A stretch of 35,260 nucleotides of DNA from Bacillota bacterium (lineage in GTDB: Bacteria > Bacillota > Clostridia > Oscillospirales > Oscillospiraceae): NCBI GenBank assembly GCA_029003235.1, contig JAQYBZ010000033.1, positions 1 to 35,260 on the forward strand, in the 5' to 3' direction. This document shows positions 17,166 through 32,741 of the stretch, piece by piece (the first letter of the stretch is position 1; each line of letters starts with the position of its first letter). The notes beneath the pieces are model-generated. The model had not been told where the DNA came from, ran no database searches, and saw only the letters and a list, made by a program, of their open reading frames with translations. Made by a program: the position numbers and the translations under genes.

Positions 17166-17210
17166 ATACGAGCGCGCGAAATGGATTCCCTGCGCGCAAA
17201 TTGCGATGAA

Positions 17211-17338
17211 GCAGGAGATTGCGCCGAAAGGCGGTAACTTCTGCGGAGTATGTCCGGTCATCGGGCGGCTGAGAGTATCTGATCCCAGCGTATATCGCTG
17301 AGGCAGGATTCGGCCGGCAAACGTCGGCCATTTTTCTT
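17211..17338 (+). promoter_or_regulatory. Structured S10 operon leader with internal terminator-like hairpin
   Basis: GAAA-capped hairpin 17211-17244; CAGCG-tatat-CGCTG 17286-17300; GGCCGGC-aaac-GTCGGCC 17312-17329 followed by aTTTTTCTT. Confidence 0.65.
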
Positions 17339-24069: not shown

Positions 24070-24255
24070 ATGGCAAGAAAAGCTATGATTCTCAAGCAGC
24101 AGAAGGAAGCAAAGTATTCCTCCCGCCGTTATAACCGCTGCAAGATCTGCGGCAGACCCCACGCCTACCTGCGCGACTACGGCATCTGCCGTATCTGCTT
24201 CCGCGAGCTGGCCTACAAGGGCGAGATCCCCGGCGTGCGCAAGGCAAGCTGGTAA
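24070..24255 (+). CDS. rpsN: 30S ribosomal protein S14, zinc-binding type (61 aa)
   Basis: '[61 protein letters not shown]', CxxC...CxxC. Confidence 0.97.
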
Positions 24256-24283
24256 AAATTGACCCAGCGATTCTAATGTAATC

Positions 24284-24352
24284 CGGACATCAGAAGTCAG
24301 AGGAACATGGAGCCGCCTGGCGGCTTGCATTCCTCTGATACTCCGGTGTCTG
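24284..24352 (+). promoter_or_regulatory. Candidate S8 autoregulatory element mimicking 16S rRNA helix 21
   Basis: AAGTCAGA (24294-24301) and TCTGATACT (24334-24342) match E. coli 16S 595-602 and 636-644, embedded in a long near-continuous stem with GCCGC-ctg-GCGGC tip; directly upstream of rpsH. Confidence 0.75.
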
Positions 24353-24391
24353 AACGGGTATAGCCCGTAACTTCAAAATGGAGGTAACAAC

Positions 24392-24790
24392 ATGCATATC
24401 ACTGATCCGGTTGCAGACATGCTGACCAGAATCCGGAACGCAAACTCTGCAAAGCACGACACCGTGGACGTCCCTGCTTCCAACCTGAAGAAGTCCATCG
24501 CTCAGATCCTTCTGGACGAAGGCTACATCAAGTCCTACACGGTTGAGGACAACGGGAACCAGGGCGTGATCCACATCACTCTGAAGTATCTCGGCAACAA
24601 AGAGAAGGCCATCTGCGGTCTTCGCCGCGTGTCCAAGCCCGGCCTGCGCGTCTACGCAGGCGCCGATGAGCTGCCCAAGGTGCTCAAGGGTCTTGGCATC
24701 GCAATCATTTCCACATCCCGGGGCGTTATGACCGACAAGGCCGCAAGAGCGGCACATATCGGCGGCGAAGTCCTGGCGTTTGTCTGGTAA
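24392..24790 (+). CDS. rpsH: 30S ribosomal protein S8
   Basis: '[40 protein letters not shown]...[27 protein letters not shown]'. Confidence 0.98.
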
Positions 24791-24803: not shown

Positions 24804-25352
24804 ATGTCTAGAATCGGCAAAATGCCTATTACCGTACCGGCAGGCGTGGACGTCGACATTGCAGAAAACAATGTCGTGACTGTCAAGAGCTCCAAGGGAA
24901 CTTTGACCCGCACATTCCATTCCGGTATGATCATCAAGCAGGACGGCAACACCATCACGGTGGAGCGTCCCAACGACGAGCATCTGTATAAGAGTCTGCA
25001 TGGCCTGACCCGCTCTCTGCTCAGCAACATGATCGTCGGCCTTGACAAGGGCTTCGCCAAGGAGCTGGAAGTCAACGGTGTCGGCTACAGAGCAGCCATG
25101 GAGGGCAAGCAGCTCGTGATGAACCTGGGCTTCTCCCATCAGGTCAAGATGGAAGCCCCCGAGGGCATCGAGATTGAAGTCCCGTCCCCCAACAAGATCG
25201 TCATCAAGGGCTATGACAAGCAGGCTGTCGGCCAGTTCGCGGCCGAAGTAAGAGGCAAGAGACCGCCCGAACCCTATAAGGGCAAGGGTATCAAGTACGC
25301 CAACGAAGTCATCCGTCATAAGGAAGGCAAGACTGGCGCTGCGAAGAAATAA
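24804..25352 (+). CDS. rplF: 50S ribosomal protein L6
   Basis: '[19 protein letters not shown]...[25 protein letters not shown]'. Confidence 0.98.
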
Positions 25353-25366
25353 GGAGGTGTGCCATT

Positions 25367-25726
25367 ATGGTTAAAAAGATCGATAAGAAAGCTCAGCGCG
25401 TGAGACGTCATACCAGAGTGCGCGGCAAGATCTCCGGCACGCCCGAAAGACCTCGCCTGAATGTTTTCAGAAGCAATGCAAACATTTATGCACAGATCAT
25501 CGACGATGTAAACGGAGTCACTTTGGCTTCCGCTTCCACACTGGAAAAAGAGTTCGAAGGTGCAACCGGCAACGCAGAGGCTGCCAAGAAGGTTGGCCTG
25601 AAGCTGGCCGAGCGCGCCAAGGACAAGGGCATCAGCGCGGTCGTATTCGACCGCGGCGGCTATATCTATCACGGCCGTGTTGCTGCTCTGGCCGAGGGCG
25701 CCCGTGAAGGCGGACTCGAGTTTTAA
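25367..25726 (+). CDS. rplR: 50S ribosomal protein L18
   Basis: '[37 protein letters not shown]'. Confidence 0.98.
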
Positions 25727-25740
25727 GAGGAGGAAGAAAA

Positions 25741-26253
25741 ATGGCTTATAGAAAAGATGCAGCAGAATCTACTGCTCCTGAAATGATCGAAAAGGTTGTC
25801 TACCTGAACCGTGTTTCCAAGACGGTCAAGGGCGGCCGTGTCATGAAGTTCTCCGCGCTGGTCGTGGTGGGCGACGGCAAGGGTCTTGTGGGCTACGGCC
25901 TGGGCAAGGCTGCCGAAGTCTCCGAGGCCATCCTCAAGGGCATTGCCAATGCCAAGAAAAACATGGTCACCATCAGCCTTTCCGGCACCACCATTCCCCA
26001 CGAAGTCATCGGTGTTTACGGCGCTGGCTCCGTTCTCATGAAGCCCGCTGCCGTTGGTACCGGCGTCATCGCCGGCGGCGCTGTCCGTGCGGTCATGGAA
26101 GCTGCCGGTATCACCAATATCCGTACCAAGTGCCTGCGTTCCAACAACCCGCAGAACGTAGTCAAGGCAACCATGCAGGGTCTGATGAGCCTGCGCAGCC
26201 CCGAGCAGGTGGCTGCTACCCGCGGCAAGACCGTGGAAGAAATTGTAGGTTAA
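25741..26253 (+). CDS. rpsE: 30S ribosomal protein S5
   Basis: '[44 protein letters not shown]'. Confidence 0.98.
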
Positions 26254-26266
26254 GGAGGGCTATAAA

Positions 26267-26449
26267 ATGGCAAAGCTGAAAATCACACTGGTAAAAAGCC
26301 TGAATGGCCGTCTCCAGAAGCACATCGCAACGGCGGAATCTCTTGGCCTGCGCAAGATCGGCCAGCAGACCATCCAGCCGGACAACACCCAGACCCGCGG
26401 CAAGATTGCCAAGATCGGCTATCTGCTGCAGGTTACCGAAGTAGAATAA
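26267..26449 (+). CDS. rpmD: 50S ribosomal protein L30
   Basis: '[40 protein letters not shown]'. Confidence 0.97.
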
Positions 26450-26461
26450 GGAGGAGACAAG

Positions 26462-26902
26462 ATGGAACTTCATGAACTTGCTCCCGTTATGGGTTCTACC
26501 CAGGTTGGTAAGCGCAAGGGCCGCGGCTGCGGCACCGGCAACGGCAAAACCGCCGGCCGTGGACACAAGGGTCAGAAGGCTCGCTCCGGCGGCAAGGTCC
26601 GTGTGGGCTTTGAAGGCGGCCAGATGCCTCTGGCACGCCGTATCCCCAAGCGCGGTTTCAACAACATCTTTGCAAAGCCTCTGACTGCTGTCAATGTGTC
26701 GGCTCTGAATGTATTCGATGACGGCGCCGTAGTCGACGCTGCCGCCCTCATCGAAAAGGGCGTGATCGCAAACTGCAAGTACGGCCTGAAGGTCATCGCC
26801 AATGGCGATCTGACCAAAAAACTTACCGTAAAGGCGGCTGCGTTCTCCGAATCTGCTAAAGCGAAGATTGAACAAGCAGGTGGAAAGGCAGAGGTGGTGT
26901 AA
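26462..26902 (+). CDS. rplO: 50S ribosomal protein L15
   Basis: '[44 protein letters not shown]'. Confidence 0.98.
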
Positions 26903-32711: not shown

Positions 32712-32741
32712 GATAGAACCTTTTAAGAAGGAGGAAATCGA

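Follow-up and report, generated by a model that had tools for sequence, protein, structure and literature searches.

The spacer between rpsN and rpsH in the spc operon of an Oscillospiraceae genome contains a hairpin that reproduces the S8 binding site of 16S rRNA helix 21. Judging from sequence, position and conservation, we think it highly probable that this spacer is a translational autoregulatory leader, in which we infer that S8 binds its own mRNA by rRNA mimicry and represses initiation at rpsH. The window, that is, the whole stretch of 35,260 nucleotides that was analysed, spans the S10-spc-alpha cluster of ribosomal protein genes in a genome whose fragmented assembly has 1.72 Mb in 149 contigs, and its closest named relatives, as determined by protein similarity, are uncultured Oscillospiraceae. 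The rpsN-rpsH spacer, with 136 nt, is conspicuous because the neighbouring spc genes are only 13-16 nt apart (rplX-rplE, rplE-rpsN, rpsH-rplF and rplF-rplR). The features of the spacer and of the flanking genes are listed in Table 1.

Table 1. Coordinates of the S8 element and of the genes around it (positions in the window)
Feature	Position	Strand	Basis and remarks
rpsN (uS14)	24070..24255	+	ORF with C..C/C..C zinc motif; stop at 24255; gene 5' of the element
Hairpin H1, whole 16S helix-21 mimic	24284..24352	+	Fold; covariation
H1 lower stem, 5' strand	24284..24293	+	Partner 24343-24352; double changes in all 8 modelled pairs (78 distinct sequences)
S8 core, 5' strand, AAGUC = 16S 595-599	24294..24298	+	Conserved core pairs; identical to same-genus 16S
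H1 upper stem, 5' strand	24299..24305	+	Partner 24330-24336; compensatory changes
H1 apical part, GCCGCC...GGCGGC	24306..24329	+	Variable hairpin; from a few nt to ~180 nt in relatives
S8 core, 3' strand, GAUACU = 16S 639-644	24337..24342	+	A642 = 24340; GAUAC in every element-bearing spacer
Hairpin P3 (ACGGG/CCCGU)	24354..24368	+	99% of cells paired over 5 pairs, 4 of them showing double changes
Anti-Shine-Dalgarno, AACUUC	24369..24374	+	In relatives AACUCU, AACCUU, AAUCUU and others
Hairpin P4	24370..24385	+	-3.8 kcal/mol; ACUUC (24370-24374) against GAGGU (24381-24385), masking the Shine-Dalgarno sequence
rpsH Shine-Dalgarno, GGAGGU	24380..24385	+	Sequence
rpsH (uS8)	24392..24790	+	E 1.6e-49 in phmmer against solved S8 proteins; putative repressor and its first target
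rplF, rplR, rpsE, rpmD, rplO	24804..26902	+	ORF list; downstream spc genes, tight spacing

An earlier note on this DNA had described two strings in the spacer, AAGTCAGA (24294-24301) and TCTGATACT (24334-24342), as identical to E. coli 16S rRNA and as part of a long hairpin. The letters and coordinates are correct, and both strings lie within AAGTCAGATG...GCATCTGATACT, a stretch verified in 5410 of 5426 E. coli genomes. The hairpin (H1) is present in the minimum-energy fold of the spacer, with a z-score of -4.3 against shuffled sequences. The pairing proposed within the core needs one correction, at the U24297.U24339 pair. In helix 21, U598 pairs with A640. In solved S8 sites the G597-C643 pair forms a triple with U641, and the bulged base contacted by the protein is A642 (PMC4176348). 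U24297 is therefore paired with A24338. The S8 loop that contacts A642 (STS) is kept in the rpsH product of the window, as IISTSRGV. The element as a whole is larger than the hairpin of the note, as it spans 24284 to the Shine-Dalgarno sequence at 24385 and adds a hairpin P3 and an anti-Shine-Dalgarno hairpin P4; H1, P3 and P4 are consecutive, with only a few nucleotides between them.

A 16S gene was not found in the window's own assembly (1.72 Mb, 149 contigs). Hence, a genome of the same genus (G021) was used for the comparison with helix 21 of the lineage itself, which the earlier note had proposed as a check. Helix 21 of G021 reads AAGTCAGA...TTTTGAAACT. The 5' core strand is thus identical to that of the lineage's own helix 21, but the 3' core differs at position 641, which is U in the mRNA core and A in the 16S rRNA of G021. 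Overall, the mRNA element and helix 21, the primary S8 site, have the 5' core strand AAGUCAGA (as read in the same-genus 16S) and the GA.ACU 3' strand in common, whereas the apical part, the lower stem and the neighbouring sequences are unrelated. Among the relatives, position 641 is always U in the mRNA mimics (L001-L080) and A in the 16S sequences (L081, L082, L087, L089). This difference counts against the proposed S8 leader; it may also set the affinity of the mRNA for S8 relative to that of the rRNA.

Conservation was analysed in 80 S8 loci retrieved through protein similarity, so that the spacer played no part in their selection; one contig (L043) begins at rpsH, leaving 79 testable loci. 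A GUC...GAUAC core lies 5' of rpsH in 78 of them, the sole exception being L060, and the core is situated 50-98 nt upstream of the rpsH start codon. Four sequence types can be distinguished: A (AAGUC/GAUACU), B (AAAGGUC/GAUACC), C (for example GAGAGUC/GAUACC) and D (CAGGUC/GAUACC). In all sequences with letters at the respective positions the three core pairs are kept, namely 597-643 as G-C (76/76), 598-640 as U-A (75/75) and 599-639 as C-G (75/75), and UA is found between 640 and 643 throughout, so that the unpaired 641 and the A642 of a helix-21-type S8 site are present. As in such a site, stems flank the core on both sides. The core pairs never vary, whereas the lower stem, the upper stem and P3 do, with every lower-stem pair and most upper-stem pairs covarying. 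Across 78 distinct sequences, in an alignment that was fitted to the model and somewhat favours it, and in which one of 79 rows (L070) is a minus-strand false match, 92.5% of positions were paired compared to 38-44% with the partner slid; double-change cells numbered 405 versus 142 in shuffles, and the covariation score was 0.55 versus 0.20. MAFFT alignments of types A and C, and of type B alone, gave the same picture of covariation. Within the subgroup of the window, 88% of H1 cells are paired and 12 of 19 pairs show compensatory changes. Furthermore, a model built from types A and C only (R1) finds the unseen types B and D 5' of rpsH with E-values of 3e-11 to 1e-4.

The 595.(596-644) triple would be A.A-U in type A and A.G-C in types B and D. 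In type B the 596-644 pair shifts jointly from A-U to G-C and 595 remains unpaired, a change comparable to the alternative G595-(C596-G644) of the Thermus thermophilus S8 site (PMC4176348). Type C sequences have either a 595-644 pair instead or a mismatch; 596-644 is non-standard in 23 of 77 sequences. Some relatives carry inserts of ~140-190 nt containing many inverted or tandem repeats, either in the apical loop of H1 (L032, L037, L038) or in the loop of P3 (L055). Core and flanking stems are intact in all four, and the hairpin tips seem to tolerate insertions. The earlier note had staked its reading, an S8 feedback element between rpsN and rpsH outside coding sequence, on core conservation and covariation in homologous spacers and on S8 binding in vitro. 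Since the core is kept and the stems covary, the computational half of this test turned out in its favour, and both findings support the proposed element.

The part of the element next to rpsH hides the Shine-Dalgarno sequence. Pairing between Shine-Dalgarno and anti-Shine-Dalgarno has a mean probability of 0.74 across the family, and it is kept among relatives while the letters of the anti-Shine-Dalgarno change. The mean energy of P4 was -2.84 kcal/mol, compared to -0.65 kcal/mol with the 5' side shuffled (z -12.3; 35 distinct segments, including L019, which was excised at the wrong place). At the other ribosomal protein starts in the window a local hairpin of this stability was seen only at rplQ, and most have none. 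The rplQ Shine-Dalgarno hairpin, CCUUUUAAGAAGG, lies at 32712-32741 and has -3.8 kcal/mol. No terminator-like site was detected in the region, hence terminator-based attenuation is not supported and translation is the likelier level of control.

The spacer thus holds, in most genomes as a single copy, a conserved structured RNA next to the gene of the very ribosomal protein whose binding site in rRNA it imitates. In the mechanism that we propose, S8 in excess over newly made 16S rRNA would bind H1, where the core offers the G597-C643, U598-A640 and C599-G639 pairs, the unpaired 641 and the A642 of the helix-21 site, together with a putative 595/596/644 triple. Bound S8 would lock the stack of H1, P3 and P4 and keep the weak P4 shut over the Shine-Dalgarno sequence, and a closed P4 would leave no single-stranded landing site for the 30S subunit. 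Initiation at rpsH would drop, followed by that of the tightly spaced genes rplF to rplO, which are presumed to be co-regulated with rpsH through coupling. When free S8 is lacking, P4 (about -2 to -4 kcal/mol) would open easily and permit translation. P4 is weak and is predicted to form also without S8. A distance of 50-98 nt from the start codon is beyond the usual 30S footprint; the link between S8 and P4 is therefore a model, and S8 is unlikely to block the start codon directly in the way it does in E. coli. Whether the element is in fact a distant S8 sensor that closes over the Shine-Dalgarno sequence through H1, P3 and P4, a mode other than that of E. coli and independently evolved in Oscillospiraceae, we consider evenly balanced.

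S8 might also bind H1 and act through mRNA processing or decay, or through retro-regulation of rplE and rpsN, rather than by hiding the Shine-Dalgarno sequence. There is precedent in E. coli, where the first two spc genes are retro-regulated via mRNA destabilisation (PMC10931766), and the long hairpin H1, its S8 core far from the start codon, could be a substrate for a double-strand nuclease. However, in all four sequence types the pairing of anti-Shine-Dalgarno and Shine-Dalgarno is maintained with changing letters, which decay alone would not need, and we regard such a route as rather unlikely. Less probable still is a riboswitch-like exchange, in which the anti-Shine-Dalgarno would pair with the 5' strand of the core in the absence of S8, leaving the Shine-Dalgarno sequence free, and would turn to the latter once S8 holds the core. 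GAAGU (24293-24297) is indeed fully complementary to ACUUC (24370-24374), in the window and in other members of the AAGUC type, and the duplex would have -5 to -6 kcal/mol. In types B and D, however, the two strands are no longer complementary (mostly -0.6 to -3 kcal/mol), although the rest of the element is kept, and folding gives almost no pairing between core and anti-Shine-Dalgarno. As types B and D lack the complementarity, the exchange was rejected as a general switch.

The length of the spacer relative to its neighbours, and the fact that P4 alone would damp initiation, could also suit a structured spacer without any ligand, in which H1, P3 and P4 would only determine how often rpsH is initiated, independently of rpsN. 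This we consider very improbable, because such a spacer would not keep the exact S8 core invariant in every one of the 75-76 sequences with letters at these positions while the flanking pairs drift, nor would it tolerate apical inserts ranging from a few nucleotides to ~180 nt. Chance likeness of the H1 core to helix 21 can be dismissed: the bare AAGTC...GATACT pattern does occur five times in the 1.72-Mb genome, and read backwards it is even commoner, but once the stems are required it becomes exceedingly rare, and covariation and family-wide conservation have already refuted this explanation. The descriptor used here followed the published rules for S8 sites, with one extra mismatch allowed since H1 of the window has one mismatch in its lower stem. 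When the spacer was shuffled with its dinucleotides preserved, it fired in 2 of 20,000 cases. On both strands of the whole window it gave a single match, the one preceding rpsH; neither rplE nor any other place in the window has an S8-like site by this descriptor. It matched the 300 nt 5' of rpsH in 54 of the 80 related loci, with no other match in the 857 kb (both strands) of these loci. The resemblance to helix 21 is therefore far beyond chance.

The element is near-universal in one family, taken from the locus names to be the GTDB Oscillospiraceae, and is not a general feature of Clostridia. Within this family, which is that of the window, a second model (R2) matched 304 of 400 genomes, covering 74 of 82 genera; nearly all of them gave a single match, and the element was directly 5' of rpsH in all family members in which the position was checked. 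Apart from G260, the family members without a match may reflect gaps in draft assemblies. In an order-wide sample 32 of 34 family members matched the model, and one of the two that were missed, G284 (L124), shows the element by eye. The 200 nt 5' of rpsH in G260 (L125) are strongly altered and have lost the order of the motifs, GATAC now standing before GGTC (GGAGATACAGTCCAACCCGGTCGAAACTCC); the element may have decayed here, or the S8 site may be circularly permuted. Samples of the class and phylum gave no credible core outside the family with the strict filters applied, which can lose weak matches. In other families of the order and class, the rpsH upstream regions that were read directly (58 genomes) are mostly spacers of 13-70 nt and coreless. 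Seven weak matches in other families of the order were discarded: five lie away from rpsH, and in the two directly 5' of it, G055 and G169 (L142, L143), only the P3 and anti-Shine-Dalgarno part is convincing, the cores being degenerate. These two genomes, which belong to one other family of the order, have a P3-like hairpin and an anti-Shine-Dalgarno-like stretch AACTGC...AGGAGG. Their degenerate cores are perhaps a relic or a precursor of the element.

A complex of S8 with spc mRNA was reportedly described by Merianos et al. in 2004. In E. coli, S8 represses the spc operon via a mimic of helix 21 at the rplE start (PMC10931766). The E. coli operator and the element described here have the helix-21 copy in mRNA, the core pairs, the unpaired 641 and A642 and the operon in common; a triple of the 595-596-644 type is putative in the element. 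In contrast, the E. coli operator overlaps the start of rplE, the third spc gene, whereas the element of the window is placed in the non-coding rpsN-rpsH spacer, well 5' of the rpsH Shine-Dalgarno sequence, has P3 and P4 in addition and belongs to a different phylum. The E. coli-type location at rplE does not occur in the window, where the rplX-rplE spacer is 14 nt long. A comparison with E. coli genomes gave no DNA similarity. Homology by descent with the E. coli operator is not indicated; rather, it looks as if the same rRNA mimic evolved independently at another site within this operon.

The logic of the element and the type of evidence, covariation and an rRNA-like core, are the same as for the rRNA-mimicking leaders of L20, eL15, S15 and S4 reported by Eckert and Weinberg in 2020 (PMC7247131). 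An S8 leader was not found in the text of that paper (20 leaders) or of a 50-genome survey (PMC11109978), nor in the main text of a human microbiome survey (PMC8040213). Rfam gave no match at 24200-24450 at the gathering cut-off, and with the threshold relaxed to E = 10 its matches were no better than chance. A known Rfam family, the S10-Clostridia ribosomal protein leader (RF03136), was matched elsewhere in the window with 41.8 bits (17198-17271), where it heads the S10 operon. It is likewise a leader of the Rfam type, but differs in protein, structure and place and has no sequence relation to the S8 element. The proposed S8 leader thus combines a known protein, operon and mimicry logic with a position, architecture and lineage that are probably new.

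According to a 2024 review, how the spc operon is regulated is known only for E. coli and Vibrio, and B. subtilis is without an E. coli-like S8 structure (PMC10931766). In the bacteria studied here S8 very probably shuts off its own synthesis by a route apparently undescribed outside E. coli and its relatives. The smallest members of the element, of ~90-100 nt (for example L061 2117-2215), would suit studies of S8 binding and RNA structure, and some hosts are in culture, with Oscillibacter and Pseudoflavonifractor records among L048-L075. The element hence provides a testable answer to how the spc operon is regulated in a large gut family.
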